DNA of 64,000 nucleotides, from NCBI GenBank assembly GCA_000621985.1, contig JHWW01000006.1, forward strand, positions 62,001 through 126,000, in the 5' to 3' direction. Position numbers and translations under genes: made by a program. Shown piece after piece: positions 29,241-44,013 of this stretch (positions are counted from its first letter, which is position 1; every line of letters begins with the position of its first letter). The stretch comes from Lachnospiraceae bacterium V9D3004. GTDB lineage: Bacteria > Bacillota > Clostridia > Lachnospirales > Lachnospiraceae. The notes under the pieces are model-generated. The model was not told where the DNA came from and searched no databases. It saw only the letters and a list, made by a program, of their open reading frames with translations.

Positions 29241-31833
29241 ACAATACTCTCCACACCGGGCTTCTTAAAAATTCGTAGAATTTTTCATATTCTTCTGCAC
29301 CTGATACGTACGAAGGCGAGTAAAGAACACGTTCAACATATCCGAAGATTTCTTCGAATTCTTTCTTCATAGCCGCAGTTTCGGCATTATTCTTATCCGG
29401 GGTGTTCTCTCGCATTTTATCATTATCCGGGCTGTCTTCGCTCAGTTTATTCTTGTCGGGGTTATTATCATCTATGATATTATCATCAGAGCTATTATCA
29501 CCCGATATATCCCTGCCCTGATTCTTCTTTACCCGTTTTAATTCATAATAATAATCTGCCAATTCTTCCGCAAGTTCCATAGGCAGAGGATTCTCAGACT
29601 TAATCATCTTCTTTTTCTTGAGTTTTCTTACATATTCGATATATCTGCCATAGACAAGTTTTTTATAATCTCCGTTCTTTAACCATCGTCTGTAACGAAG
29701 CTCTTTAATTATTTTTCGAATAAGCAGAATTAGTATCCAGAACACACATGCAAGCCCGATCACAATTCCGATAGGAATTATTATGATATTCAGATCCGGG
29801 CCGTCATTTTGTGCGATCTCCTGTAAGGTATCGTCTGTTATTGAAATCGTGTCTTCGGAAGTGTCTCCGAGACCAAGATCCACAGTCAACAGATTACGCA
29901 GGAATTCTCCTATTCCTCCGGTCGAAGCCGGCGCCACATTATCAAAATCAGGCGGTGTTACTTCATATGGAATGAAACCTTTGCCTTCAATATATACTTC
30001 CGGCCATGCATGTGCATAAAAGTCGCTCACTTCGACAGAATACTTTCCACTCTCATCAACTTTTCTGCCATTTTCCGCAAGCAATGACGGAGGAATACAA
30101 TATCCTTCAACGTATCTTGCAGGAATCCCCAGATGACGAAGCAGCATTACGGCAGCGGATGCAAAATGCGAGCAGTAACCGTTTTTTTGCGTCTCAAGAA
30201 AATAACGCACAAAATCCGCATCCGTCGGTGTCTTTCCGGGCGACAGAGAGTAAGGATATTCTTCAGGAAATACCTTCTTAATCGCTTTACACGCCAACAG
30301 TCTGAACTCATTGATCGCATTAACATCATTTTCTTTTACTGCTTGTCTGTAAGCCTTTATATCAAGCCCGAGATTATTATGTTCCCTTACAAATGCAGTC
30401 AGATAATTATTCAGATTATTTGATATATAACAGTTATAATCTATGTAACTGTCATACCCGTTAATTTCAGATATACTGTCATCATATTTTTTATAGTGTA
30501 CCTTGGGCAGAGGAAGATACTTTATATCCGATACATATAGAGAAGCTTTATCTCTTCCGTCTCTTCCGGTGAAAAATGAATTATCACGCCTTCCTTTCAC
30601 ATTCTCTGCCAACGTGATATACGGTGTCACAAGCATCCCAAAACTCATATCAAGATAATTGATCTTCATACTTTCGGCAGTCATATCACTGTCCGTAACT
30701 CTCTTAATATATTCCTCATCAAGTTCCGACGCCGAACCCGGATATTCATTCCATCTCTGGCCTGTATATTCCGTTCCGTAATAACCCGGCAGATACAATG
30801 TCTCATTATCATAAGGAACGTATTCGACCACAAGATCTGTCTGGAGATCGGAGCTTACCGAAGACACTCCGCCCAAAGCTCCCCTTGCGAGTCCGTTAAG
30901 AGAATCATATCTGTTAAAGAAACCGTAAAAACCATTTTGAACAAGAATCTTAATATTGTCGTCGAGGATCGCCTTGGCGCTGTCATTTTCCGTCTCACCC
31001 AAACCTCTTTGATATGCAGGAAGCGAAAAAACACATATTGCAAGAGAGAAAATCCCTGCAAAAGATATCGCATACAGGATTCCCTTATGGTTTCCTCTTG
31101 TCGTATAATATGTCTTTTTGAATATCTTATCCCTGACATAATCCGGATCTTTTCTGCCCGTAATCTTAACCCTTGCATATGAACCTCTCTGCAGCAGTCC
31201 CGAAGCGATACAGCCGGTCATTGTAAGGATTATGGATATGATCGGCGGTTTAAGTCCAATATACAGAGGTACTTCAAGCAGTATGAAGGAGATTCCGAAA
31301 GTCTCCGCAAAATTCATGTAACGAGAAACCGTTATATTATACATAATGATCAGGAAAAATGCTATGAAGATCAAAGCTATGGTAATAGTAACATTCCTGT
31401 TGCCGTACAACTCTTCCGAAGACTTGATCACATCCATCTCAAAATGATCTCCGTAAGCATCTCTCACTCTGTTCATTATCGCCTGAAAACCACTGTTTGC
31501 GTACAGATAATATCTAACGAGTTCAACAGTAAATAATATAAGTAAGATCACATAACCCGAATAAAAAAGTATCTTATTCACATAAACGAGCGAAACAAGA
31601 ATGCTTATAAGCGCGATAAAAAATATCACCAGTAATTTATTATAATTTAAAGAAAAAGCATCACAAAAACCGGTGATCGTTCCCGTACATACCAGAAAAA
31701 TGATCAACGCTTTTGAAAGGCACAAAAACAGAGAGCTCGCTCTCTTGCTGCCGTAGATCTCAGTTATGGCAACACCTGACAACTCAAGCTCTTTTTGTCT
31801 TTTTTTCTCCTTAAATGATAATAAACCTGCCAT
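29230..31833 (-). CDS. Membrane transglutaminase-like protein (TgpA/DUF3488 type)
   Basis: 867 residues: an N-terminal block of about six to seven TM helices (35-275), an extracellular part, a transglutaminase-core domain, one TM helix (about 670-695) and a cytoplasmic tail with a DUF4129-like character. Catalytic candidates are Cys554 (NGYCSHFASAAVMLLRHLG), His608 (FYAHAWPEVY) and Glu624 (IPYEVTPPDF, where many members have Asp). Proteins of this kind sit next to MoxR and DUF58 genes in many bacteria. Substrates are unproven. AGAGG precedes the ATG. Confidence 0.9.
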   Translation of the reverse strand: MAGLLSFKEKKRQKELELSGVAITEIYGSKRASSLFLCLSKALIIFLVCTGTITGFCDAFSLNYNKLLVIFFIALISILVSLVYVNKILFYSGYVILLILFTVELVRYYLYANSGFQAIMNRVRDAYGDHFEMDVIKSSEELYGNRNVTITIALIFIAFFLIIMYNITVSRYMNFAETFGISFILLEVPLYIGLKPPIISIILTMTGCIASGLLQRGSYARVKITGRKDPDYVRDKIFKKTYYTTRGNHKGILYAISFAGIFSLAICVFSLPAYQRGLGETENDSAKAILDDNIKILVQNGFYGFFNRYDSLNGLARGALGGVSSVSSDLQTDLVVEYVPYDNETLYLPGYYGTEYTGQRWNEYPGSASELDEEYIKRVTDSDMTAESMKINYLDMSFGMLVTPYITLAENVKGRRDNSFFTGRDGRDKASLYVSDIKYLPLPKVHYKKYDDSISEINGYDSYIDYNCYISNNLNNYLTAFVREHNNLGLDIKAYRQAVKENDVNAINEFRLLACKAIKKVFPEEYPYSLSPGKTPTDADFVRYFLETQKNGYCSHFASAAVMLLRHLGIPARYVEGYCIPPSLLAENGRKVDESGKYSVEVSDFYAHAWPEVYIEGKGFIPYEVTPPDFDNVAPASTGGIGEFLRNLLTVDLGLGDTSEDTISITDDTLQEIAQNDGPDLNIIIIPIGIVIGLACVFWILILLIRKIIKELRYRRWLKNGDYKKLVYGRYIEYVRKLKKKKMIKSENPLPMELAEELADYYYELKRVKKNQGRDISGDNSSDDNIIDDNNPDKNKLSEDSPDNDKMRENTPDKNNAETAAMKKEFEEIFGYVERVLYSPSYVSGAEEYEKFYEFLRSPVWRVLYVL

Positions 31834-31938
31834 ATCTAACCTCTGTCGTATTTAAAAAAAAATCAACTGTTCAGCACCCTAATTCGCATGCTTTTCACCA
31901 AAAATTTTTATGAGTTCATGCGATGTCAAACACTTACT

Positions 31939-32964
31939 CTATACAAGAAGATTGTCCTCATACAGTTTTATATCTCTATCGTGTACAGTGAGAATGATCG
32001 AAGACTTCTGACCCGATGAATAATATGCTTCTCTTGCACTTCCTTCATTATCATAAAGGGGCAGAAAAAACATATTCCTGTAGCACTCATAAAGCATCTC
32101 TTCATTATCTATCACAAAATATTCAAAATCACATACGGAGTTATTAAAAAGACATATCTCAAAACGCTCTCCGGAAGCTATTAACTCTCTTGAAACAGCA
32201 TCAAGTGTTTTAATTGTCTGCTCGATATTATTTCGTTCAAGCTCGGGTAAAATAATAAGCGACATCACTGATGTCCTTTCCATCTCCTTAACCTGAAGAG
32301 AATCGGTTTTTGCACTGAGTTTCCAATGGATCCTTGCAAGACGGTCACCGGGGCGATATTCTCTAATTTCTTTGATATCAGAAGACGGATTCCCCTTAAG
32401 GTCAGGTTCCGAATACTCATCATACCCTTCCGAAAAAGGCATCTCGGGTGCAACAATCTTACCCGAATCCGTCGGAAATACCGGCACCGAGACAGTAAAT
32501 TCGGCAGGAATATACGTGCTCACCATTCCAAGAAATCCCGTAACAAGAAGGCTTTTGGCATTAAAAGAAACCATACCTGTCTTTGACGTCATCGTATTAA
32601 TATATATCCTGTCCTTCTTTGACGGAGCAATGTTAAAATTCAGATAATTAATATTTTTATTCCCATAATAATGATTAGATATATTAAAAGTCAGCCTGCA
32701 TTTCAGAAATGGCAGATATGTCGGGTTATCATATTCAAGGAAAAATATTATATCATTTCCTTTATCAACCGCTGCCGCATCAGTCCCGCCAGAAACTTTA
32801 ATTTTCTTAACATTTATAATAAATAACGGAATAAGTCCCGCAGGAAGAAGGATATAGGGAAAAAGCAGAAAAACAAGATAATTCTGCTTAAAAACGATGA
32901 TAAAAAAAAGTATAAGTATAAATACAAAAAAATATTTTATTATAGACCAAATGTGTATCTTCAT
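31939..32964 (-). CDS. DUF58 domain protein
   Basis: About 341 residues from MKIHIWSIIKYFF. An alternative start at 33075 would overlap the moxR gene by 89 bp and has no ribosome binding site; the GGACGG upstream of 32964 is weak. Two N-terminal TM helices (8-50) are followed by beta-rich sequence and the DUF58 signature GNPSSDIKEIREYRPGD, continuing RLARIHWKLSAKTDSLQVKE. DUF58 proteins resemble von Willebrand A domains in part and act with MoxR ATPases. 22 bp separate it from moxR. Confidence 0.9.
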   Translation of the reverse strand: MKIHIWSIIKYFFVFILILFFIIVFKQNYLVFLLFPYILLPAGLIPLFIINVKKIKVSGGTDAAAVDKGNDIIFFLEYDNPTYLPFLKCRLTFNISNHYYGNKNINYLNFNIAPSKKDRIYINTMTSKTGMVSFNAKSLLVTGFLGMVSTYIPAEFTVSVPVFPTDSGKIVAPEMPFSEGYDEYSEPDLKGNPSSDIKEIREYRPGDRLARIHWKLSAKTDSLQVKEMERTSVMSLIILPELERNNIEQTIKTLDAVSRELIASGERFEICLFNNSVCDFEYFVIDNEEMLYECYRNMFFLPLYDNEGSAREAYYSSGQKSSIILTVHDRDIKLYEDNLLV

Positions 32965-32986
32965 AAGAAATATCCGTCCCGAATCG

Positions 32987-33910
32987 TCACATCGGCATAG
33001 GTACCGAATCAAATGACATTGAAAGAGTTCTTGCAGGAATATATCCCGCTGCTTTCGCTTTTGTGGAAAGTACAACCCTGTGATTGGCTACGCTGAAATA
33101 TACTGCCTTGACATCTTCCGGCACCACATAATTCCTGTTCATTATAAATGCGTGAGCTTTTGACATCTTAAGCAGCGATATACTGGCACGCGGACTAAGA
33201 CCGAGCTGGTAGAGATCATTTCCCCTTGTTATCTCCGTAAGCTTTACTATGTAATCGAGCATAGAATCCGTAATATTAACAGCCTCGACCATATCCTGCA
33301 ATCTTAAGATATCATCCTTTTGCATACAGGGATTAAGACGATCCGTTATCTCGTGGGAATCCCCTTTCAATATATTCACTTCACTGTTATGATCGGGATA
33401 TCCCATAGTCAGTCTTATCATGAATCTGTCAAGCTGTGACTCCGGAAGCTTCTGCGTACCGGAAGCCCCGATAGGATTCTGTGTGGCTATGACAAAAAAT
33501 GGTCTGGGAATAACATGAGTAACACCGTCGACGGTACATTTCTGCTCTTCCATTACTTCCAAAAGCGCAGACTGTGTCTTCGGCGAAGTACGATTGATCT
33601 CATCCGCAAGGAAGAAGTTGGTGAACACAGCGCCCTTTCTGAACGTGAATTCACCTGCATTCTTATCATACATCGTAAATCCCATAAGATCGGAAGGAAG
33701 AACATCCGGAGTGAACTGTATTCTCTTATAATCAAGGTTGAGCACCTTAGCAAATGCTGTTACAAGTGTGGTTTTCCCGACACCGGGTATATCTTCAAGA
33801 AGCACATGTCCGCCGGCAAGAATAGCGCAAAGCACCATGTCAATAACTTCATCTTTGCCGTGGATCACAAGCTTAACCGAACTTCTTACTCTGTCAATCA
33901 TCTCAGCCAT
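32987..33910 (-). CDS. MoxR-family AAA ATPase
   Basis: About 307 residues from MAEMIDRV. GGAGG lies 5 bases before the 33910 ATG, and the longer frame to 33949 has no such site. Walker A GVGKTTLV, Walker B FFLADEINRT, sensor 1 (VIATQNP) and the MoxR-specific arginine-rich region GLSPRASISLLKMSKAHA are all present. MoxR ATPases are thought to act as chaperones that assemble or activate partners, often via vWA/DUF58 proteins. It is the first gene of the MoxR-DUF58-transglutaminase-lipoprotein operon, divergent from the NitT-type importer. Confidence 0.93.
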   Translation of the reverse strand: MAEMIDRVRSSVKLVIHGKDEVIDMVLCAILAGGHVLLEDIPGVGKTTLVTAFAKVLNLDYKRIQFTPDVLPSDLMGFTMYDKNAGEFTFRKGAVFTNFFLADEINRTSPKTQSALLEVMEEQKCTVDGVTHVIPRPFFVIATQNPIGASGTQKLPESQLDRFMIRLTMGYPDHNSEVNILKGDSHEITDRLNPCMQKDDILRLQDMVEAVNITDSMLDYIVKLTEITRGNDLYQLGLSPRASISLLKMSKAHAFIMNRNYVVPEDVKAVYFSVANHRVVLSTKAKAAGYIPARTLSMSFDSVPMPM

Positions 33911-33954
33911 AATATCCTCCATACTATTAAGAAGTAGACGCTTCAACATCCTCC

Positions 33955-34010
33955 GGGTCCAGCACCCCAGTCCCTTGTCGCTTCGCGTAGGGGAACACTG
34001 GGCTGGACCT
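33955..34010. other. Long inverted repeat between divergent operons
   Basis: GGTCCAGCACCCCAGT and ACACTGGGCTGGACC pair over about 15 bp with one or two mismatches around a loop of about 24 bases. It lies in the leader of the MoxR operon, upstream of the NitT-type promoter. It resembles the other GC-rich hairpins of the window and may be a REP-like element or a transcription barrier. Confidence 0.5.
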
Positions 34011-34080
34011 TATAGTCATTTTAACAAACATAACGTGAATACGCAATCTTAGGCTTTGTTATTTTTTTATCAAATAACTA

Positions 34081-34109
34081 TTGACAAGTTTATTATCATC
34101 CTCTATAAT
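34081..34109 (+). promoter_or_regulatory. Consensus sigma-A promoter of the NitT-type importer operon
   Basis: TTGACA (34081-34086), exactly 17 bases, then TATAAT (34104-34109). This is a perfect consensus promoter, so the operon should be strongly expressed unless repressed. It is about 60 bp before the start of the substrate-binding protein. Confidence 0.85.
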
Positions 34110-34126
34110 CGTAAACCATAGCAATA

Positions 34127-34152
34127 CCTACTTAAATGATATGTTTACTAGG
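34127..34152. promoter_or_regulatory. Candidate operator in the importer leader
   Basis: An imperfect inverted repeat, CCTACTTAAA (34127-34136) and TTTACTAGG (34144-34152), lies downstream of the -10 box and runs into the ribosome binding site (GGGAAGGA). A repressor bound here would block a very strong promoter. The regulator is unknown; Rrf2-type factors use sites of similar shape, but this is a guess. Confidence 0.45.
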
Positions 34153-34167
34153 GAAGGATGGATGATT

Positions 34168-35100
34168 ATGAAAAAATCAACGAAAAAAACACTGTTATCA
34201 CTGTTACTGGCACTTACTCTTACCGTATCTTTGACAGCCTGCGGCTCAGGAAAAGACGGCGATGGAAATACGATCAAGATTGCTTATCTGCCCATCACTC
34301 ATTCACTTGCCGTGCTGGAAGAAGCTAAGGAACTTGAACAACAGACCGGCCTTAAGGTTGAACCTGTCAAATACGGTTCATGGCCCGAACTTCTTGACGC
34401 TCTTAATTCCGGCAATGTAGACGGCGCTTCCGTTCTTATAGAACTTGCAATGAAATCTAAGCAGGAAGGCATTGGAATCAAAGCAGTGGCACTCGGTCAC
34501 CGTGACGGCAATGTTATCGTTGTTTCCAATGATATCAATACTGCCGCTGACTTAAAAGGCAAGACATTTGCAATTCCTCACAGACAGTCTTCACATAATA
34601 TTTTGCTTAATGACGCACTTGCAACTGCAGGACTTACGATTGATGATGTGAATGTTACCGAGCTTGCACCTACAGAGATGCCTTCAGCACTCGCAAGCGG
34701 TCAGATCAACGGCTACTGTGTTGCCGAACCTTTCGGTGCGATGGGTGTATCGCTCGGAGCCGGCAAAGTACTGTTCAGTTCGGAAGAACTGTGGGAGAAT
34801 TCACTGTGCTGCGGTCTGGTACTCACTGATAAATTCATCAACGACCGTCCCGATGACGCCAAGTATTTTGTTGAACAATACAAACAGGCAGGCAATGCCC
34901 TTGATAAAGAAAAAGCCAAAGAGATCGCCAAAGAATATCTCAACCAGAGTGATGAAGTTCTTGACACTTCTCTCCAATGGATATCCTACAACGATCTTGA
35001 CATAACCGAGGATACTTATAATACACTCGTTGAAAAAGTTAAGTCTTACGGTTTATCGGATAATCCGCCGGATTATAACGATTTTGTGAAGAATTTTTAA
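34168..35100 (+). CDS. NitT/TauT-family ABC transporter substrate-binding lipoprotein
   Basis: About 310 residues from MKKSTKKT; the start at 34168 follows GGGAAGGA at about 9 bases, and the longer frame has no site. Signal peptide with lipobox LTAC, then the SsuA/NMT1-like two-lobe fold: IKIAYLPITHSLAVLEEA, WPELLDALNSGNVDGASV, DLKGKTFAIPHRQSSHNILL, SALASGQINGYCVAEPFGA. Members bind nitrate, sulfonates, taurine, thiamine precursors or unknown anions, and the sequence does not tell which. The ligand might relate to the CooS protein encoded downstream. Confidence 0.92.
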   Translation: MKKSTKKTLLSLLLALTLTVSLTACGSGKDGDGNTIKIAYLPITHSLAVLEEAKELEQQTGLKVEPVKYGSWPELLDALNSGNVDGASVLIELAMKSKQEGIGIKAVALGHRDGNVIVVSNDINTAADLKGKTFAIPHRQSSHNILLNDALATAGLTIDDVNVTELAPTEMPSALASGQINGYCVAEPFGAMGVSLGAGKVLFSSEELWENSLCCGLVLTDKFINDRPDDAKYFVEQYKQAGNALDKEKAKEIAKEYLNQSDEVLDTSLQWISYNDLDITEDTYNTLVEKVKSYGLSDNPPDYNDFVKNF

Positions 35101-35119
35101 TATATAGGACGTGATGTCA

Positions 35120-35881
35120 ATGAAAAAAATAATATCAATAAAAAATGTGATCATCTCTCTGGCCATACTTATATTATTATGGCAGTTGCTGTTTTCGATC
35201 AGCAATTATGACAAAGCTCTGTTTCCGTCGCCTCTCATGGCATTTGACGCATTAATAGAGATGATAAAAAACGGTCTTCTGCTCGAAAATATAAAAGCAA
35301 GTATGTATCGTTTTGCAATCGGATATGTAAGCTCCGTGTTGATTGCCGTGCTTCTCGGAGTCATACTCGGAAGACTTCAGAGCGTATTCAAGTACATCAA
35401 TCCGGCAGTGCAGCTTATAAGACCGATATCACCGACAGCCTGGATGCCCTTTATAGTTCTTTTGTTCGGGATCGGTGATATACCGGCAATAGTCATAATA
35501 TTCATTGCCGCATTCTTCCCTGTTCTTCTCTCAACGGTATCGGCAGTCGGTAATATCGATCCGATATATCTGAAAGTGTCGAAGAATTTTGGGATAAAAC
35601 AGCCGTCACTTACATGGAAGGTCATATTCCCTGCGGCATTTCCACAGATCGCTAACGGCATACATCTTGCACTCGGTACAGCATGGATATTCCTTGTTGC
35701 AGGTGAGATGGTCGGAGCACAATCAGGGCTTGGCTATCAGATAATTGACGCAAGAAATAATATCCGAGCAGATATTCTTCTAGCTACAATACTTGTGATA
35801 GGAATAATCGGAATTCTGCTTGACGGCTTGTTAAAATTAATAGAAAATGCTATTCTAAAATCCTGGGGAGGTGATGAGTGA
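35120..35881 (+). CDS. NitT/TauT-family ABC transporter permease
   Basis: About 253 residues with six predicted TM helices and the cytoplasmic EAA loop (NFGIKQPSLTWKVIFPAAFPQIANGIHLALGTAW). I chose ATG 35120, about 10 bases after AGGA; a GTG at 35111 and an ATG at 35114 are possible but too close to the site. It starts 20 bp after the binding-protein gene and its TGA overlaps the ATG of the ATPase gene. It forms the import channel with its paired ATPase. Confidence 0.93.
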   Translation: MKKIISIKNVIISLAILILLWQLLFSISNYDKALFPSPLMAFDALIEMIKNGLLLENIKASMYRFAIGYVSSVLIAVLLGVILGRLQSVFKYINPAVQLIRPISPTAWMPFIVLLFGIGDIPAIVIIFIAAFFPVLLSTVSAVGNIDPIYLKVSKNFGIKQPSLTWKVIFPAAFPQIANGIHLALGTAWIFLVAGEMVGAQSGLGYQIIDARNNIRADILLATILVIGIIGILLDGLLKLIENAILKSWGGDE

Positions 35882-36651
35882 TGTATATTGAAGTAAAAGA
35901 CGCATGCAAAAATTTTGTTCAGGACGGTAATGAATTCGTTGCACTCGATCATGTATCGCTTGGCATTGAAAAAGGTGAGTTCATCTGTCTTCTCGGCCCG
36001 TCGGGATGCGGTAAAAGTACTCTCCTCAATGCTCTCGCAGGATTCGAAAGAGTAAGCAGCGGTTCCGTGACAATTGAGGATACCGAAGTAACGGCTCCTT
36101 CAATCAATAACATCACGATATTCCAGAATTACGGTCTGCTCCCCTGGCGCAACGTGCTTAAGAATGTTGAGCTTGGTCTTGAATCCAAGAATGTTCCAAA
36201 GTCCGAACGTGAACAAATTGCAAGAAAATATCTCGACCTTGTCGGACTTAACGGCTATGAAAAACGCTATCCGAAACGCTTATCCGGTGGACAGCAACAA
36301 CGTGTCGCTATCGCAAGAGGACTTGCAGTCGATCCGGACATCATATTCATGGACGAACCGTTCGGTGCATTGGATGCGATCACAAGAATGAAGCTACAAG
36401 AAGATATATTGAATATATCCAGAAAAGAAAAAAAGACAATAATATTTGTAACACACGATATTGAAGAAGCAGTATTTCTTGCTGACAGGATCGTTGTTAT
36501 GATGGCAGATCCCGGAAGGATCAAAAGTATCGTGAAGGTTCCTCTAGGCGCACATCGCGACAGAACAAGTGAGGATTTCTTATATGTAAGAGATAAGATA
36601 TTCGAGCTGTTCAATCTCAAGACCGAAGGATATATAGAGTATTACATATAA
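35881..36651 (+). CDS. NitT/TauT-family ABC transporter ATPase
   Basis: 256 residues with Walker A GPSGCGKST, Q-loop FQNYGLLPW, signature RLSGGQQQRVAIARG, Walker B DIIFMDEPFGALD and the switch histidine TH. The ATG at 35881 overlaps the permease stop (TGATG) and has GGGGAGG before it. It powers the importer. It ends 90 bp before the cooS-family gene, with a weak CACG-ATT-CGTG hairpin and T-run (36674-36689) between them that could reduce but not abolish read-through. Confidence 0.94.
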   Translation: MYIEVKDACKNFVQDGNEFVALDHVSLGIEKGEFICLLGPSGCGKSTLLNALAGFERVSSGSVTIEDTEVTAPSINNITIFQNYGLLPWRNVLKNVELGLESKNVPKSEREQIARKYLDLVGLNGYEKRYPKRLSGGQQQRVAIARGLAVDPDIIFMDEPFGALDAITRMKLQEDILNISRKEKKTIIFVTHDIEEAVFLADRIVVMMADPGRIKSIVKVPLGAHRDRTSEDFLYVRDKIFELFNLKTEGYIEYYI

Positions 36652-36741
36652 CAACTGTAGCTTTACAGCAACTCACGATTCGTGTTTTTATGTATTATGT
36701 GCGATTAACATTAATCATCATTATTAAACAGGAGACATACT

Positions 36742-38841
36742 ATGAGCAAGAAAAACCATGATATTAAAAATGAACATCACCACTCTCACGATGACGGTCC
36801 GGCACACATCCACTCACACCGTAATATTATCGGATTCGATGAGCACGGCATTCCCACGGTCATACTCAAAGCCGATCATGGCGAGGGCGATGATGATGAC
36901 CCGAAAGCATTTATAAAAGATTATATGAATGCCGTATCGGAATATAAGAAGACATTTCCTTCAAAAGATGAAGTAGCCGAACAGACTCCCGATCCTGCTG
37001 TAAGAGAAATGATAAAACGTATGGAGCAGCTTGGAGTTGATACAACATTCGACAGATTTGACAAGCAAAAACCGCAGTGCAGCTTCGGACTTGCCGGAAT
37101 ATGCTGTAAGATATGTAATATGGGGCCTTGTCGTATCACCGAAAAAGCTCCGAAAGGAGTCTGCGGTGCAGATGCAGACCTCATTGTCGCAAGGAATCTT
37201 CTGCGCTCTGCAGCTGCAGGTGCAGCTCAGCACGGAATGCATGCAAGAGAAGTTATGCTCGCACTCAAATGGGCCGCTGAAGGCAAGCTTGACGTTCCTA
37301 TACTCGGTGAACAAAAGATCCGTTCAACCGCTGAAGCATTCGGCATCAAGCAAAAGAACCGTCAGCTTAAGCACGTTGCCTGTGATCTTGCCGACGCACT
37401 TCTGGAAGATCTGTCAAGAACCGTTCCCGATGAATACAAAACAATATCCGCATGTGCTGTTCCCGAGAGACAAAAAGTGTGGAAAGAACTTGATATCCTT
37501 CCGATCAGTGCATATCATGAAGTCTTCGAAGCATATCACAAATCCGGATGCGCAACTGACGGTGACTGGCGTTCTGTAATGCAGCAGTTCTTAAGATGCG
37601 GTCTCGCATTTACATTCTCAGGTGTCGTAGGCGCTTCAATAGCTACAGACAGCCTGTTCGGCGTTGGTGACAGAGTCACATCCAAGGTTAATATAGGGGC
37701 CCTCGAAAAGGGCTATGTCAACATAGCAGTTCACGGTCATCTCCCACTGCTTGTAAGTCAGATCGTTGAAGCCGGCAAGCGCGAAGACCTACTTGAACTT
37801 GCCCGAAGCAAAGGCGCAAAAGGAATTCGTTTCTATGGAATATGCTGCTCAGGTCTCTCGGCAATGTACAGATATGCCGGAGTAATCCCACTTTCTAATG
37901 CCGTATCTGCCGAGCTTGTCCTCGGAACCGGTGCGCTTGATCTGTGGGTTGCCGACGTACAGGATGTATTCCCTTCCATCATGGAAGTAGCGCACTGTTT
38001 CAAGACCACGGTTGTCACCACCAGCGAATCGGCTAGACTCCCAGGTGCTGAACGTTATGAATACGATCATCACCATTCAAATATCGGCGAAACAAAAGCT
38101 CTTGCTGAAAAGATCGTAAGGAGAGCCATCGAAAGCTTCGAAGCAAGAAAAGGGATACCTGTCTACATTCCTCCTTACGAAGTGGAGGCTGAAGTCGGTT
38201 TCTCAGTAGAATATATACATAAACGTTTTGGCAGTATGAAGCCGCTTGCAGACGCAATTAAAGATGGCAGGATCCTTGGCGTTGTTAATATGGTCGGATG
38301 TAATAATCCTAAGGTTCTGTATGAAAAATGTATTGTAGATGTTGCAGATGTTCTTCTGAAAAATAACGTATTGATAATATCTAACGGCTGCGCATCATTT
38401 CCATTAATGAAGCTTGGTTACTGTGCGGTATCGGGAAAAGAAAAAGCAGGCGATACATTAAGAGAATTCCTTGAGCCCGATCTCCCACCGGTATGGCATG
38501 TCGGAGAATGTATCGACAATACACGTTCCTCCGGAATATTCGCCGGCATTGCAGGAGCACTCGGTCACAAGATGTATGAAATGCCATTCGCATTCTCATC
38601 ACCCGAGTGGGGCAACGAAAAGGGAATCGATGCAGCTCTTGGCTTCAGATTGAACGGAATCAGCTCCTACCACTGCGTGGAAGCCCAGATATACGGTTCC
38701 AAAAATGTTATCGAATTCCTCAAGCTTGGCACCCTTGAAACACTCGGTTCAACCATGAATGTTGATACCGATCCTGTCAAGCTGGGTGAAAAGATCGTTG
38801 CCGACATGAAAGCAAAGAGAAAAGCTCTCGGATGGGATTAA
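36742..38841 (+). CDS. CooS-family Fe-S protein lacking one canonical C-cluster cysteine
   Basis: 699 residues on the anaerobic CO dehydrogenase scaffold. D-cluster Cys113 and Cys121 and B-cluster Cys122, Cys125, Cys130 and Cys141 are present (QCSFGLAGICCKICNMGPC). C-cluster ligands seen are His331/His333, Cys369 (GICCSG), Cys520 (GCNNP), Cys550 and Cys590 (GECIDN). The position usually Cys in VDVQCxMP is Asp408 (VADVQDVFP). Residues 1-50 are His/Asp-rich (HHHSHDDGPAHIHSH), beyond the usual N-terminus. No CooC, CooF, acetyl-CoA synthase or hydrogenase gene is near. Family members that lack a cluster cysteine, such as CooS-V, carry an Fe/S/O hybrid cluster and are not CO dehydrogenases. Activity here is therefore uncertain. 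Confidence 0.92.
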   Translation: MSKKNHDIKNEHHHSHDDGPAHIHSHRNIIGFDEHGIPTVILKADHGEGDDDDPKAFIKDYMNAVSEYKKTFPSKDEVAEQTPDPAVREMIKRMEQLGVDTTFDRFDKQKPQCSFGLAGICCKICNMGPCRITEKAPKGVCGADADLIVARNLLRSAAAGAAQHGMHAREVMLALKWAAEGKLDVPILGEQKIRSTAEAFGIKQKNRQLKHVACDLADALLEDLSRTVPDEYKTISACAVPERQKVWKELDILPISAYHEVFEAYHKSGCATDGDWRSVMQQFLRCGLAFTFSGVVGASIATDSLFGVGDRVTSKVNIGALEKGYVNIAVHGHLPLLVSQIVEAGKREDLLELARSKGAKGIRFYGICCSGLSAMYRYAGVIPLSNAVSAELVLGTGALDLWVADVQDVFPSIMEVAHCFKTTVVTTSESARLPGAERYEYDHHHSNIGETKALAEKIVRRAIESFEARKGIPVYIPPYEVEAEVGFSVEYIHKRFGSMKPLADAIKDGRILGVVNMVGCNNPKVLYEKCIVDVADVLLKNNVLIISNGCASFPLMKLGYCAVSGKEKAGDTLREFLEPDLPPVWHVGECIDNTRSSGIFAGIAGALGHKMYEMPFAFSSPEWGNEKGIDAALGFRLNGISSYHCVEAQIYGSKNVIEFLKLGTLETLGSTMNVDTDPVKLGEKIVADMKAKRKALGWD

Positions 38842-38866
38842 TAAGATGGTGTTTGTTCTGTCTAGT

Positions 38867-39060
38867 CAATATCCGTAATGCATAAAAATCCATTGCAATC
38901 TTTGTTAAAAATGCTGTATCCAAAACAATGTATTACCAAAATATTGAAGTGACATTGTGCATGTTGAACAAAAGGCATCAGTTAGTTGTCACTAACTTCA
39001 AGTTTGAAAAAATGGAAAGCGTCGTGATCAGCTTTCCATTTTCAAATACTAATTCATTCC
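38867..39060. repeat. Rpn-island repeat, copy 1
   Basis: About 194 bp, starting 25 bp after the cooS stop. Begins CAATATCCGTAATGCATAAA and ends with the hairpin GGAAAGC-10-GCTTTCC (39014-39037) flanked by AAAAT and ATTTT, a bidirectional terminator. Copies 2-4 are near-identical. Confidence 0.9.
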
Positions 39061-39066
39061 TCAGAA

Positions 39067-39426
39067 TTATTCCTGTTTATCTAAAACAGTTATAACTTCC
39101 TCTTCTGATATCCCTAGCATCTTAGCAATGTCGGTAATAGAAAAACCTGCATTGTTATACAAGGCTTTAACACTACCTTCAAGTCTGCCTTCAAGCCTAC
39201 CTTCAAGCCTGCCTTCAAGCCTGCCTTCAGATATTCCCGCATTATATATCGTCTTAGCCTCATGCTCCAATACCGTTCCGCCCATAACCGCACTCACTCC
39301 TTCCAGGATATTATCATGCTTAGCTGCCAGATGCTTCAACACATAATTAATCATGTCTATTATGGTTCTGTAATTATAGTATGACAGATCTCCCTCTTTT
39401 GTCAACCTCTGAAGTTCATTTATCAT
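39067..39426 (-). CDS. C-terminal Rpn-type protein encoded in a deleted rpn copy
   Basis: 119 residues, homologous to the C-terminal third of the intact Rpn protein (42592-43527) and almost identical to it up to residue 71. It has four to five tandem GRLEG units (39173-39232) against one in the intact copy, then a small helical C-terminus ending EEEVITVLDK. The PD-(D/E)XK nuclease domain is absent. It may be only a remnant, or it may be expressed as a nuclease-free C-terminal protein, as described for RpnS in enterobacteria. No clear ribosome binding site precedes its ATG. Confidence 0.5.
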   Translation of the reverse strand: MINELQRLTKEGDLSYYNYRTIIDMINYVLKHLAAKHDNILEGVSAVMGGTVLEHEAKTIYNAGISEGRLEGRLEGRLEGRLEGSVKALYNNAGFSITDIAKMLGISEEEVITVLDKQE

Positions 39427-39540
39427 AGTTTTAAAATCGGCTGTGAGCCTGTCAAGTCTGTCCGGATTGGAATTAATCTCTAAACTATTTCTCTGTCATA
39501 ATCGCCATTGATTATAATGCCCGTTCAGAACAGCAGGAAA
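39427..39540 (-). pseudogene. N-terminal remnant of a deleted rpn copy
   Basis: Upstream of the 119-codon frame, sequence matching the intact copy continues to about 39480 (EINSNPDRLDRLT). It then jumps to a short match with the region encoding YNNEHIIINGG and REKRI (about 39487-39530). About 370 bp of the nuclease domain has been lost between those points, and stops interrupt the joined frame. Confidence 0.65.
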
Positions 39541-39549
39541 TCAAAAACA

Positions 39550-39725
39550 TTAATTTTCTGAAATCTCCCAATAACCACTATACCCACTTCCAACATAATT
39601 GACATTTGGCATTGCTGCAATATTGTGTTTTACCGTTCTGTCAGACACATCAAGTTTTTCTGCCATAACTTTTGTTGTAACCTAAGAATCTGCTTTTATC
39701 AATTCTAGTATTATCTCAGCCTTAA
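39550..39725 (-). pseudogene. Fragment of a helix-turn-helix protein C-terminus
   Basis: On the minus strand an interrupted frame reads KAEIILELIKADS-stop-VTTKVMAEKLDVSDRTVKHN, ending with YVGSGYSGYWEISEN and a stop. This is the winged-helix tail typical of AlbA_2/RecG-like regulators or ATPases. It overlaps the 3' end of the ORF6N gene in another frame. Only the tail survives, so it is a fragment left by rearrangement. Confidence 0.55.
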
Positions 39726-40709
39726 AACAGGCTGTAAAAGAAGATTATCTACCATCGGATAATATAGTTCTTTATTATCCGACTTAGATATTGTTGTAAT
39801 CTTGTTACCTGCATCCTTGCTGGACGCTCCACAATGATAAATCTTTTCGGTCCGCGCCTTATAATCGAGGATAATATATCTATCATGGAATTTCCCGCCT
39901 GTTCGTTGGAATGACAGCTTTACATTCGGATACTCTGCTTGAAAAGCCTGAAGCTCTGACAAGCGAAGGATATTCATCAAATTGTCGCTGAAAATGACAA
40001 TATCCACGTTTGTAGGAACGCTTTTCAACATCAGCAACGTTTTGGGACCGATGTAGTTATCCACTATGTATAGTTTCTTTTTGGCCTTGCTATATATATC
40101 CGCATATGCAGCATCTGCCTCAAACGTTTGTCCTGCATAGATAACATACTCAATACCCTTATCCGGCAATGAAAAACTCTGAATCACTTTGGTCAGATCA
40201 TCCTTTGTAACCATTGCATCCTTAATCTCGCTGATTTCTCTGGTATTTTCCGAAACCTGCAAAGACAGGCTTGCAATATTCGAAGAATCAGGCAGTAATG
40301 GATCATGGCTCAGATAATCCTTCATTTGCTTAAACGTTCTTATTAAAGCCTTACTCTGTCGAGTCGCCAATTCTCCATTTAACACAGTCATAAGCATGTA
40401 GATACCGGTTTCTGTAAATACATATGGCTCATATCTGCTTTTGGGGTTTATGTTTGCGGTCAAAAAATTTGACCGCAAATCAGCAGTTTCCTCCGCTGTT
40501 AACTGAAAACGAAAATCATCCTCGAATTTTCCAATATTATTCTTCACCTGTTGATTAAAGGTTTTCGTTGTGTAACCATAGATTTCTGCCAGATCCGCCG
40601 CCAACATCACACGCTGTCCTCTAACCATGTATATCTTTGCCTTAAGTGTTTCAACTGTTATCTCTACTGGAATCAATTCATTCTTCTGATCGTTCATATG
40701 TGCATTCAT
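39711..40709 (-). CDS. ORF6N-domain protein with PLD-like C-terminal region
   Basis: About 332 residues from MNAHMNDQKN; ATG 40709 lies 7 bases after AAAGGA, and ATG 40715 is too close. Residues about 14-110 form an ORF6N DNA-binding domain (KIYMVRGQRVMLAADLAEIYG, then TKTFNQQVKNNIGKF), common in phage antirepressor-like proteins. The C-terminus (IEYVIYAGQTFEADAAYADI to KFHDRYIILDY) resembles the phospholipase-D-like region often found with ORF6N, with an HDR variant of the HxK motif. The function is unknown; defence or regulatory roles have been proposed for such proteins. Its C-terminal end abuts a broken gene. Confidence 0.82.
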   Translation of the reverse strand: MNAHMNDQKNELIPVEITVETLKAKIYMVRGQRVMLAADLAEIYGYTTKTFNQQVKNNIGKFEDDFRFQLTAEETADLRSNFLTANINPKSRYEPYVFTETGIYMLMTVLNGELATRQSKALIRTFKQMKDYLSHDPLLPDSSNIASLSLQVSENTREISEIKDAMVTKDDLTKVIQSFSLPDKGIEYVIYAGQTFEADAAYADIYSKAKKKLYIVDNYIGPKTLLMLKSVPTNVDIVIFSDNLMNILRLSELQAFQAEYPNVKLSFQRTGGKFHDRYIILDYKARTEKIYHCGASSKDAGNKITTISKSDNKELYYPMVDNLLLQPVLRLR

Positions 40710-40780
40710 ATGCATGTCCTTTCTGATTAAAAAATGCTTAAAATCGTTCCAAAGCTGAATACCTAACCTTGTCAGCAAGC

Positions 40781-40885
40781 TCCTTCATGTACAGTCTGTA
40801 TCATAATATCCGGATATGATGATCTTGCTGTAATACTGTTGTAATAATTCATTGAACACAGTATACTACCCGGTAATACATTATT
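40781..40885 (-). repeat. Copy of the rpn upstream region, now in front of the ORF6N gene
   Basis: About 105 bp nearly identical to 43532-43640, which carries the likely promoter and ribosome binding site of the intact rpn gene. Shared features are TCCTTCATGTACAGTCTGTA, the palindrome ATATCCGGATAT and the ATACAGTATAC-type -10 region. Here the ATG is gone and the ORF6N gene follows, which implies recombination between rpn copies. Confidence 0.8.
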
Positions 40886-41080
40886 CAATATCCGTAATGC
40901 ATAAAAATCCATTGCAATCTTTGTTAAAAATGCTGTATCCAAAACAATGTATTACCAAAATATTGAAGTGACTTTGTGCATGTTGAACAAACAGCATTAG
41001 TTAGATGTCACTAACTTTAGGGTTGTAAAAATGGAAAGCGTCGCGATCAGCTTTCCATTTTCAAATACTATTTCATTCCT
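40886..41080. repeat. Rpn-island repeat, copy 2
   Basis: About 195 bp, near-identical to copy 1 with a few substitutions. Hairpin GGAAAGC-10-GCTTTCC at 41033-41056. It overlaps the stop region of the short Rpn C-terminal frame. Confidence 0.9.
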
Positions 41081-41297
41081 CAAAAACAATCCTCTCAACC
41101 TCCTCCTCGGAGATATCAAGTTTCTTAGAAATATCCTCAATACTATAATCTGCATCATAAAATAGTGATTTCACTCTGCCTTCAAGTCTACCTTCCTCTT
41201 TACCCTTAACCATACCTTCATCTATTCCCGCATTATATATCGTCTTAGCCTCATGCTCCAATACCGTTCCGCCCATAACCGTATTCACTCCCTCCAA
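41073..41297 (-). CDS. Short Rpn C-terminal frame (remnant or RpnS-like)
   Basis: 74 codons starting at TTG, matching the end of the intact Rpn protein (GVNTVMGGTVLEHEAKTIYN to SEEEVERIVFEE). It has GMVKGKEEGRLEGRVKS in place of one GRLEG unit. GGAGGGAGTG lies inside the shared sequence, upstream of an in-frame ATG (VNTVM), so an internal start is conceivable, though the spacing of 14 bases is long. It lies 20 bp after the PD-(D/E)XK gene at 41318-42274 and might be read as its downstream partner. It could equally be a truncated leftover. Confidence 0.45.
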   Translation of the reverse strand: MEGVNTVMGGTVLEHEAKTIYNAGIDEGMVKGKEEGRLEGRVKSLFYDADYSIEDISKKLDISEEEVERIVFEE

Positions 41298-41317
41298 GAT
41301 ATGACTAAATAAATATA

Positions 41318-42274
41318 TCAGTTCTTCACTAACATCTTTTCCTGAACAGCCCTAATCTCTTCCATGGAATAATCAAATAACTCCGAAATTTCTTCAGGCG
41401 TCTTGCCTTTCTTTAGCATAGTTGAAATAACATTAGTCCTCTCTGAAACTTTCGCTTCACCCCATGCTTCGTTCCATGCCTTATCCCAAATCAAATCTCC
41501 AATCCCTTGCACAGTATCGACCTCCTTATTAATGTTCTCCTGAGGTGTCCCGATCCGGCTGATTATCTTGTCACGGTTATTAGTTAACACTCCCTTAAGA
41601 TAATCGAAGATCTCAACGCTGCTATCTGCGTCGGTATCAAGCCTGATCAATACAACCTCAAGCAGATCATAATTAGTTATCTCTTCCTCAACTGTACCAT
41701 AAAAATCTTCTTTTGTCAGCTTATATCTGCTGACAGTATTCTTGAATTTCTTAGGAATCCTTGAGTCATAACATACCCATATGGAGTAAACCTTCTGCAA
41801 CACACCGTAATTCGTCTCTTTTGTCAATTCCCCAAGCTGCCTTGAAAGGCTTCTAGCCGAATAATATATACTTCGCTTAATCAACGGATACCCGGGGGAA
41901 TAGGAACCTTGCGCTTCAAAATCAATGAACAGCTGAATGTTAAGCTCAGTCCGCTTATTCTCAGGTAATGCAGCTTTAAAATGAACATCAAATAACACAT
42001 TCTTGTCAGATACTGATTTCAGATCAGTGTCGATCTGAGTTACTCTGACATCATCAGTCTTAGGATAATCGCTTACCGCTTCTACCTTCGATATACTGGC
42101 CTCATCAATAAGATCAATTATCTCATCCAACGATAAGCCTTCGTACTCTTCAATAGTTTCTTTCAAAACCGGCGCAAGAATCTCTTTGTTAAGAAATAAA
42201 TCATGACACTTTTCGTCCATCAAGTCCTTAACTTCACTTATCTTATCTAGTAAAATATCTGTCTCTTTTTTCAA
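41318..42274 (-). CDS. PD-(D/E)XK nuclease-family protein
   Basis: 318 residues. The core resembles PD-(D/E)XK nucleases of the Rpn superfamily (LNIQLFIDFEAQGSY with the acidic-x-Gln motif, preceded by VLFDVHFKAA). It ends in a helical tail (EEISELFDYSMEEIRAVQEK) of the same design as Rpn tails. It is not a close relative of the intact rpn copy and belongs to a second family in the island. The likely activity is DNA cleavage; the biological role is unknown. Confidence 0.75.
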   Translation of the reverse strand: MKKETDILLDKISEVKDLMDEKCHDLFLNKEILAPVLKETIEEYEGLSLDEIIDLIDEASISKVEAVSDYPKTDDVRVTQIDTDLKSVSDKNVLFDVHFKAALPENKRTELNIQLFIDFEAQGSYSPGYPLIKRSIYYSARSLSRQLGELTKETNYGVLQKVYSIWVCYDSRIPKKFKNTVSRYKLTKEDFYGTVEEEITNYDLLEVVLIRLDTDADSSVEIFDYLKGVLTNNRDKIISRIGTPQENINKEVDTVQGIGDLIWDKAWNEAWGEAKVSERTNVISTMLKKGKTPEEISELFDYSMEEIRAVQEKMLVKN

Positions 42275-42409
42275 TGAATACCTCCCTAAAAACTACAGGA
42301 TGTATCATTATATCCGGATATTATGCACATGCTGCTAATAACATCGAAATGTTTGATCCACCAAACAGCATCGACTTAAAGTAAGTGTAACACACATCAC
42401 TGACTTTGA

Positions 42410-42605
42410 CAATATCCGTAATGCATAAAAATCCATTGCCATCATTGTGAAAAATGCTGTATCCAAAACAATGTATTACCAAAATATTGAAATGAGTTTG
42501 TGCATGTTGAACAAAAGGCATCGGTTAGTTGTAACTAACCTCAAGTTTGAAAAAATGGAAAGCGTCGTAATCAGCTTTCCATTTTCAAATACTAATTCCA
42601 TTCCT
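42410..42605. repeat. Rpn-island repeat, copy 3
   Basis: About 195 bp with hairpin GGAAAGC-10-GCTTTCC at 42556-42579. It is the 3' flank of the intact rpn gene, so the hairpin likely ends that transcript. Confidence 0.9.
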
Positions 42606-43527
42606 CAAAAACAATCCTCTCAACCTCCTCCTCGGAGATATCAAGTTTCTTTGAAATATCCTCAATACTATAATCTGCATCATAAAATAGTGCTTTCACT
42701 TTACCTTCAAGCCTGCCTTCAGATATTCCCGCATTATATATCGTCTTAGCCTCATGCTCCAATACCGTTCCGCCCATAACCGTATTCACTCCCTCCAAGA
42801 TATTATCATGCTCAGCTGCCAGATGCTTCAACACATAATTAATCATATCTATTATAGTTCTGTAATTATAGTATGACAGATCCCCCTCTTTTGTCAACCT
42901 CTGAAGTTCACTTATCATAGTTTTAAAATCGGCTGTGAGCCTGTCAAGTCTGTCCGGATTGGAATTAATCTCCCCAAAATCGTCCTCATAAGCGAAAATG
43001 TAAAATGGAAGTAAAAAATACAGCTTTTTCTCTAACAACTCTTCCAATGAATAATTCTTCAAGCACAAAATATGTACAGGAAATTCAAATCTGTCATTCT
43101 CATACTCCATAATAATCTTCATATGTTCAGGCATATCTTCATCATGTCGAAGGAACAGCACTGCCGATCCCGGAACCCTGATATACATGACATTGCCATC
43201 TACTTCATACGAATCCATAGCATCAAGAACAATGTACTCGAACATTCTAACTACCATACTGTCATCCGGTCTTGTCTGACACTCGAACACATACCGCCTT
43301 CCGGCAATCCCAAATGCACTGTCATTAATCCTCTTCTCTCTGTCACGACCGCCATTGATTATTATGTGTTCATTGTTATAAAAAATGACAGGCTCATCCG
43401 CATCATAACTCATACCGAACAACTCATTAACCAAAGGAATAAGAAGATTCTTACAGTCATACATCATTGTCTTAAATGCATCATCGTATGGTCTCGATGA
43501 TACCTTCTGTTCTGTTAATTGTTTCAT
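42592..43527 (-). CDS. Rpn-family PD-(D/E)XK nuclease (intact copy)
   Basis: 311 residues, the one full-length member here. Nuclease-core motifs are DDAFKTMMYD near residue 15 and RRYVFECQTRPDDSM near residue 77, the E-x-Q signature of this superfamily. The C-terminal part (IDMINYVLKHLAAEHD, GRLEGKVKALF, EEEVERIVFEEWN) is shared with the two short frames. Rpn proteins promote recombination in E. coli and some act in phage defence. AAGGAGTC precedes the ATG at good spacing. Confidence 0.85.
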   Translation of the reverse strand: MKQLTEQKVSSRPYDDAFKTMMYDCKNLLIPLVNELFGMSYDADEPVIFYNNEHIIINGGRDREKRINDSAFGIAGRRYVFECQTRPDDSMVVRMFEYIVLDAMDSYEVDGNVMYIRVPGSAVLFLRHDEDMPEHMKIIMEYENDRFEFPVHILCLKNYSLEELLEKKLYFLLPFYIFAYEDDFGEINSNPDRLDRLTADFKTMISELQRLTKEGDLSYYNYRTIIDMINYVLKHLAAEHDNILEGVNTVMGGTVLEHEAKTIYNAGISEGRLEGKVKALFYDADYSIEDISKKLDISEEEVERIVFEEWN

Positions 43528-43531
43528 ACAC

Positions 43532-43640
43532 AGACTCCTTCATGTACAGTCTGTATCATAACATCCGGATATGATGATCTTGCTGTAGTACTGTTGAAAA
43601 ATTTCGTTGAATACAGTATACCACCCAGTAATACATTATT
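43532..43640 (-). promoter_or_regulatory. Upstream region of the intact rpn gene
   Basis: Carries the ribosome binding site AAGGAGTC, the palindrome-like ATCCGGATAT and a likely promoter (TATACT). Near-identical to 40781-40885. Promoter assignment is by eye. Confidence 0.4.
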
Positions 43641-43815
43641 CAATATCCGTAATGCATAAAAATTTATCGCACTCTTTGTTAAAAATGCTGTATCCAAAAC
43701 AATGTATTACCAAAATATTGAAATGACTTTGTGCATGTTGAACAAAAGGCATTGGTTAGTTGCATCTAACTCCTGGCTTGTAAAAATGGAAAGCGTCGTG
43801 ATCAGCTTTCCATTT
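43641..43815. repeat. Rpn-island repeat, copy 4
   Basis: About 175 bp with hairpin GGAAAGC-10-GCTTTCC at 43788-43811. No rpn gene follows it, so it marks the right end of the island or a lost copy. Confidence 0.88.
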
Positions 43816-43928
43816 ATTTCACTAGCGCTTCAGTCAAATGTTTCCCTAAAGAATATCTGAATCACTCTGTATACTTCATATGATATACCGGCAGGTTATA
43901 TCTTCAGCAGACGATGTTTTCCAATAAA

Positions 43929-43996
43929 AAACCTAGCACCTTAAAGTGTAGTGAAATGTTAGCATTTCCTACAACTTATTATAACCGGCTAGGTTG
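43929..43996 (-). terminator. Terminator hairpin of the polysaccharide operon
   Basis: On the minus strand AACCTAGC and GCTAGGTT form the base of a long imperfect stem, with CATTTC/GAAATG near the loop, and are followed by TTTTTTATT. It lies just after the flippase stop (44014). It probably ends the surface-polysaccharide transcript. Confidence 0.75.
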
Positions 43997-44013
43997 GCTA
44001 GGTAAAGATACCC

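Follow-up and report, generated by a model that had tools for sequence, protein, structure and literature searches.

A carbon monoxide dehydrogenase-like protein with an altered C-cluster ligand, encoded beside a NitT/TauT-type importer, and its possible role in sulfur acquisition

Importer and CooS-like genes

In the 64,000-nucleotide stretch of DNA analysed here (the window), four consecutive forward-strand genes encode a NitT/TauT-type ABC importer and a homologue of the carbon monoxide dehydrogenase (CODH) CooS. The importer genes are preceded, on their own strand, by a putative promoter that matches the sigma-70-type consensus TTGACA-N17-TATAAT exactly (34081..34109). The first gene, for an SBP lipoprotein of NMT1_2 fold (34168..35100; Pfam NMT1_2, 129.6 bits), has an ATG start with GGGAAGGA upstream; the TTG start given by the ORF caller, 34081, falls inside the promoter-like site. 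The permease gene (35111..35881; BPD_transp_1, 78.2 bits) and the ATPase gene (35878..36651; ABC_tran, 106.2 bits) overlap by four bases and are followed by cooS (36742..38841; 699 residues), whose product scores 493.9 bits against TIGR01702 (curated cut-off 478) and 449.5 bits against Pfam Prismane PF03063, and is the single PF03063 match of the host genome. These scores bear out the CooS-family identity assigned in a preliminary description of this DNA, which had also remarked that CooC, CooF and acetyl-CoA synthase genes are missing nearby; the annotations of the ten surrounding proteins that were scanned include none of them. The importer directly upstream had been overlooked.

The importer, assigned to its family by sequence, shares its superfamily and a linkage to sulfur assimilation with the SsuABC and TauABC sulfonate importers, which work with oxygen-dependent desulfonation. 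It differs from them in having a CODH-fold protein as partner, and its SBP scores 133.5 bits against the SsuA family model TIGR01728, under the cut-off of 163.5, which leaves it outside that family. The nearest solved structure to the SBP is 3un6 from Staphylococcus aureus, followed by SsuA and TauA. The title of 3un6 names bound zinc, and we take the protein to be SAOUHSC_00137, that is, SA0167. The S. aureus SA0167 operon belongs to the cysteine regulon of CymR and drops 11.5-34 fold in the presence of sulfide (PMC5480029); an annotation of SAOUHSC_00137 is given in PMC3128592.

At the locus itself (31000-44000) no riboswitch or T-box was detected (Rfam, E ≤ 1), and no reference sulfur protein was matched in the whole window (E ≤ 1e-6). 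Directly downstream of cooS, the reverse strand carries Rpn/PDDEXK-type recombination-promoting nuclease fragments and an ORF6N protein (39067-43524). The operon (34081-38841) may have been acquired horizontally; a match is present in 0 of 9 same-genus genomes, the nearest proteins (94-96% identity) come from Ruminococcus-labelled loci, the operon has a G+C of 0.44 compared with 0.388 in the window as a whole, and the best DNA match is 80% (L182). Immediately downstream of cooS a pair of small ORFs is recurrent, each being present in 30 loci (for example L182:12714-13402); the pair in L182 gave no Pfam match.

Cluster ligands and fold

A phmmer alignment to CODH-II (7err) places the D- and B-cluster residues Cys39, Cys47, Cys48, Cys51, Cys56 and Cys70 of that enzyme at C113, C121, C122, C125, C130 and C141 of the window protein, the C-cluster ligands His261, Cys295, Cys446, Cys476 and Cys526 at H333, C369, C520, C550 and C590, and the acid-base residues His93 and Lys563 at H164 and K627. 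The D-cluster is of type II, Cys-(X)7-13-Cys-Cys, here C113-(X)7-C121-C122. The C-cluster departs from the canonical Ni-CODH set of five Cys and one His at the column of CODH-II Cys333, which holds D408 (codon 37963..37965, forward strand). The preliminary description had placed this Asp at a ligand column and numbered the remaining C-cluster cysteines correctly; of the two histidines that it offered, 331 and 333, only the latter occupies the ligand column.

The substitution is not a base error, since all 100 close relatives in a 152-row alignment (window included; the partial L125 was left out of the residue table) carry an acidic residue here, Asp in 98 and Glu in two. The same column is Cys in 12/12 rows of a sister group, termed Cys-type below, and in 39/39 control CODHs. 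Among the Asp/Glu-type proteins the B- and D-cluster cysteines, His93 and His261 are invariant (100/100 rows), as is Lys563 (99/99 non-gap rows).

An AlphaFold2 model of the window protein has a mean pLDDT of 81.0. The N-terminal extension with its ten His (codons 1-60; 36742..36921, forward strand) is predicted with low confidence, residues 1-51 having pLDDT below 50. The best PDB fold match is the CODH 6t7j (TM 0.83/0.91), and the 50 best PDB fold matches listed are CODHs. We rejected an identity as hybrid cluster protein (HCP) on these matches and on that to TIGR01702.

The preliminary description had drawn an analogy with CooS-V of Carboxydothermus hydrogenoformans and proposed an Fe/S/O hybrid cluster with slow hydroxylamine reduction, a reading that can be put more broadly as an HCP- or CooS-V-like hydroxylamine or NO reductase acting under nitrosative or redox stress. 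The two proteins do share the CODH scaffold and a single changed C-cluster ligand. CooS-V (clade D, group D-1), with Cys295 replaced by Glu, demonstrates that one such change can yield a hybrid cluster (PMC9311411), and clade D CODHs and HCP have ligand features in common (PMC10502027). The window protein, however, keeps Cys295 as C369 and has lost Cys333 instead, and it combines a type II D-cluster with H164 where group D-1 has a type III D-cluster and a Tyr in place of the acid-base His (PMC6344411, Table 2). CooS-V is 49th among the PDB matches listed for the model, and genes of nitrosative stress are not recurrent in the largest clusters of neighbours from the 121 neighbourhoods considered below. 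As CooS-V differs in the ligand lost, in the D-cluster and in the acid-base residue, we rejected the analogy; a slowly hydroxylamine-reducing hybrid cluster is a guess that has no matching case, and we hold it to be highly improbable. The earlier observation was right and its interpretation partly supported, in that a canonical ligand has changed and CooC, CooF and acetyl-CoA synthase are missing nearby.

Class placement

Compared by its features with the published description of the group, for which WP_026514536 is the representative, the window protein appears to be a member of clade B, group B-1. It agrees with that description in the type II D-cluster, the C-cluster pattern H C D/E C C C, the acid-base His and Lys, the N-terminal His-rich region (10 His in residues 1-60) and the adjacent NitT/TauT ABC genes (34168-36651), and differs in none of the defining features. 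The Cys-type loci (L099-L110) would, from their features, correspond to group B-4 (all Cys; Moorella, Calderihabitans). This group resembles the window system in importer order and in the remodelled pocket positions, and differs in having Cys at 333, no His-rich tail and cysK directly upstream, with about 38-40% identity. A 71-row tree joins the two clade B groups with an SH-aLRT of 99, subject to a long-branch warning.

Group B-1 was described in 2019 together with its Asp/Glu state and its ABC partner (PMC6344411). The substitution in itself is therefore already known, and we rejected the Asp as a source of novelty on this ground and because the sister group, which has the importer too, lacks it. 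A 2026 survey in eLife reports ABC genes for 64% of clade B operons and describes clade B as having no characterised enzyme and its role as not deducible from gene context (PMC13056359). 'Cysteine synthase' is named as a neighbour of cooS in PMC7306483 and PMC11338639. Our literature searches listed no paper linking clade B CODH to sulfur assimilation.

Substrate pocket

On the alignment, the second-shell pocket next to the C-cluster is remodelled in both clade B subgroups, at CODH-II positions 219, 312, 567 and 570, which we take to line the substrate site. D219 is replaced by F in 100/100 Asp/Glu-type rows and by Y in 12/12 Cys-type rows, S312 by A (100/100) and I (12/12), and I567 by A (99/99 non-gap rows) and Q (12/12), the controls having I in 31/39 and D in 8/39; W570 gives way to G, S or A in the Asp/Glu-type and to S or T in the Cys-type. 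Solved CODH-II variants at 567 and 563 are among the PDB matches of the model. The aligned residues suggest that the pocket above the cluster is enlarged. The Cys-type group still has all five Cys, yet it shares the importer and the remodelled pocket, so the Asp probably arose later within the system and is not the basis of its function.

Gene neighbourhoods of relatives

Neighbourhoods were collected for 28 Asp/Glu-type and 12 Cys-type homologues (12 of the 14 Cys-type genomes then known), for 80 further loci reached through an SBP alignment (the best 80 of 391 relatives, which did not extend to staphylococci) and for 40 control CODH loci. A script located CooS in 101 Asp/Glu-type loci (window included), 12 Cys-type loci and 39 control loci; nine loci in which it found none were dropped before counting, five on short contigs (L113, L115, L138, L153, L167), two on partial contigs (L086, L211) and two in which an overlapping reading frame masked cooS (L095, L096). 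Genes were called by a simple longest-ORF rule, which will have overlooked some neighbours. An SBP gene lies within 3 kb of cooS at 96/101 Asp/Glu-type and 11/12 Cys-type loci and at 0/39 controls, and CooC within 8 kb at two, none and eight loci, respectively.

After CooS and the importer, the 121 neighbourhoods clustered have their largest neighbour clusters in cysteine synthase, present at 33 loci, and the MetY/CGS family, present at 26; the relatives are ringed by sulfur amino-acid genes, not by nitrogen-stress genes. We defined a core sulfur set of CysK, MetY/CGS, PatB, sulfite-reductase-like, TusA and sirohaem genes. A member lies within 10 kb of cooS at 29 of the 101 Asp/Glu-type loci, at 28 of them with one on the same strand, two contigs being, to judge from their lengths, counted twice among the 101 and in the 29 (L072/L190 and L074/L183). 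The corresponding figures are 12/12 for the Cys-type, a group picked by match range after cysK had been noticed in one member (L004), and 1/39 for the control CODH loci; the short-piece Cys-type loci L060 and L061 also have CysK beside cooS, making 14/14. Counted within 8 kb, CysK or MetY/CGS is found at 27/101 Asp/Glu-type loci versus 1/39 controls (Fisher, 4.9e-4), at 18/58 versus 0/38 once rows at least 95% identical are dropped (Fisher, 3.3e-5) and at 4/17 versus 0/30 under 85% identity (p = 0.013), all three values being uncorrected for relatedness. On a 74-row tree the sulfur-neighbour label needs 17 changes, at least 10 of them forced by well-supported branches, which implies that the association was gained or lost repeatedly. 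One control locus, L230, has CysK, MetY, TusA and ThiF within about 6 kb.

The arrangements vary: cysE-cysK-cooS in the sister genomes L092 and L093, with no importer nearby; SBP...cooS-metY-cysK in L140, L156 and L186; cysK-metY-Rrf2-SBP...cooS in L157; two CGS/MetY-family genes followed by cooS-SBP in L075 and L078; and cooS-PatB-cysK in L114 and L120. In the Pseudobutyrivibrio loci L178, L188 and L190, sulfite-reductase-like, TusA, ThiF, JAB and sirohaem genes precede importer-cooS on the same strand, and in L178 and L190 these genes are followed downstream by MetY and CysK. Representatives checked against family models pass the cut-offs for CysK (L099, L110, L140, L114, L092, L190), O-acetylhomoserine sulfhydrylase (L140, L190), CysE (L092) and PatB (L077); the CGS/MetY pairs in L075 and L110 belong to the family but score under the equivalog cut-offs listed. 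In L183 (2555-7263; Butyrivibrio sp. X503), nifH-like, cysK-like and two nitrogenase-component-like genes lie upstream of importer-cooS; the set might be a methylthio-alkane-reductase-like system.

At 72/101 Asp/Glu-type loci, the window and many short contigs included, the 10 kb around cooS contain no core sulfur gene, and the same holds for 44 of the 68 such loci of at least 15 kb. In the window and its nearest relatives, of Ruminococcus flavefaciens/albus type, cooS stands without a sulfur gene nearby, and the sulfur role of the window unit is consequently inferred from homologues.

Regulatory RNAs at three of the 44 distinct relative loci scanned are of sulfur type; the other 41 gave none. 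A T-box leader directly precedes the Asp-type operon cysE-cysK-cooS in L092 and L093 (109.9 and 118 bits), and by our own reading its specifier region has TGC, a Cys codon, right after GAA (5714-5721). A SAM riboswitch (87.5 bits) directly precedes a run on one strand in L110 of two CGS/MetY-family genes, cysK, cooS, SBP, permease and ATPase.

The importer also occurs apart from its usual partner. An SBP match (E ≤ 1e-60) was found in 19 genomes, 15 of which also have a CooS match (E ≤ 1e-120). In L250 (G828) and L251 (G648), from two of the others, where no clade B CooS is found at that threshold, the SBP, permease and ATPase genes have an acyl-CoA-dehydrogenase-like gene and an HxlR regulator nearby, and the SBPs share 61 and 57% identity with the SBP of L099. 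The acyl-CoA-dehydrogenase-like gene of L250 scores 31.3 bits against Pfam Acyl-CoA_dh_N, and the NCBIfam matches of both genes are weak, SfnB and desulfinase among them; in addition, a homocysteine methyltransferase and two MetY/CGS genes are present in L250. In L252 (663-1747), the first 80 residues of CysK run directly into a truncated SBP reading frame, possibly the remnant of a cysK-cooS-SBP operon after loss of cooS.

These loci bear on the function that the authors who defined clade B gave to the ABC genes, namely nickel import (Inoue 2019; PMC6344411). On that account the importer brings in Ni2+, the His-rich tail loads it, and the enzyme, a Ni-CODH that matures itself and has Asp as a ligand, still converts CO/CO2. 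The His-rich N-terminus, the retained acid-base pair and five of the six C-cluster ligands, the TIGR01702 score and the zinc in 3un6 all speak for it, as do HypA over cut-off in 21/29 carrier genomes (host included) and CooC beside cooS in two basal Asp-type loci (L097, L098), which fits nickel. The zinc and a PF14026 'nickel responsive' protein in L250 hint at metals and so count against a sulfur role. Yet eight of the 29 carriers have no HypA over cut-off, CooC-like matches (E ≤ 1e-15) occur in seven of the 29 and not in the host, and I567 and W570 are replaced; the probable S. aureus orthologue of the SBP sits in the cysteine regulon (PMC5480029). Moreover, cooS follows cysE-cysK in L092 and L093 with no importer nearby, and importer orthologues accompany an acyl-CoA-dehydrogenase-like gene where clade B CooS is missing. 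We therefore regard a nickel-importing, CO-converting unit as unlikely. The cluster may or may not hold nickel; CODH-II Cys333 is a ligand to an iron in the Fe3S4 part, and its loss need not remove the nickel site.

A sulfite-reductase-family (NIR_SIR) protein is encoded in 20 of the 29 carrier genomes, host included, so a second route to sulfide exists in many of them. In the host (L258, C1:430000-446500), sulfite-reductase-like, sirohaem-synthase-like and SAM-synthetase-like genes, named partly by eye, lie together with a second NitT/TauT-type ABC set. The unit could serve sulfur metabolism with the CooS-like protein acting in redox sensing or as an accessory in electron transfer, while a different enzyme, for instance sulfite reductase, frees the sulfur; L178, L188 and L190 hold both in one cluster, and regulatory roles have been proposed for other non-canonical clades (PMC13056359). 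Against this, nine of the 29 carriers have no NIR_SIR match, and the invariant B- and D-cluster cysteines, His93, His261 and Lys563 suit catalysis. An accessory role seems to us quite unlikely.

Discussion

Gene neighbourhood is evidence on pathway, not on chemistry. From the linkage among homologues, the physiological role of the unit is probably sulfur supply for cysteine and methionine synthesis rather than the oxidation of CO. Whether genes 34168-38841 constitute one sulfur-acquisition unit, with a CODH-scaffold enzyme of sulfur acquisition at its end, is in our estimate evenly poised. More tentatively, and with odds a little poorer, the importer may bring in a small sulfur-bearing anion that the CooS-like enzyme would catalytically cleave or reduce, handing on sulfide or sulfite. 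In such a scheme, low-potential electrons would reach the enzyme through the intact D and B clusters, the modified C-cluster would act on the imported anion with His164 and Lys627 as proton donors, and the sulfide (or sulfite, by way of sulfite reductase) would pass to cysteine synthase and O-acetylhomoserine sulfhydrylase. A wider proposal, which we advance as doubtful, is that clade B CooS-like proteins are oxygen-independent sulfur-liberating enzymes whose enlarged pocket would accept an imported organosulfur compound or thio-anion (sulfonate, thiocyanate or similar) and free sulfide from it reductively.

To our knowledge, the release of sulfur from organosulfur compounds by strict anaerobes without oxygenases is poorly understood, and a CODH-scaffold route to such sulfur, if true, would be unexpected. 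With a CODH scaffold, strict anaerobes would then accomplish what aerobes that have the same importer achieve through flavin oxygenases, and the Asp/Glu branch would also have altered the C-cluster itself. The sulfur linkage would give clade B CODH homologues a concrete role, and for rumen and gut genomes a TIGR01702 or CooS annotation alone does not establish the use of CO.
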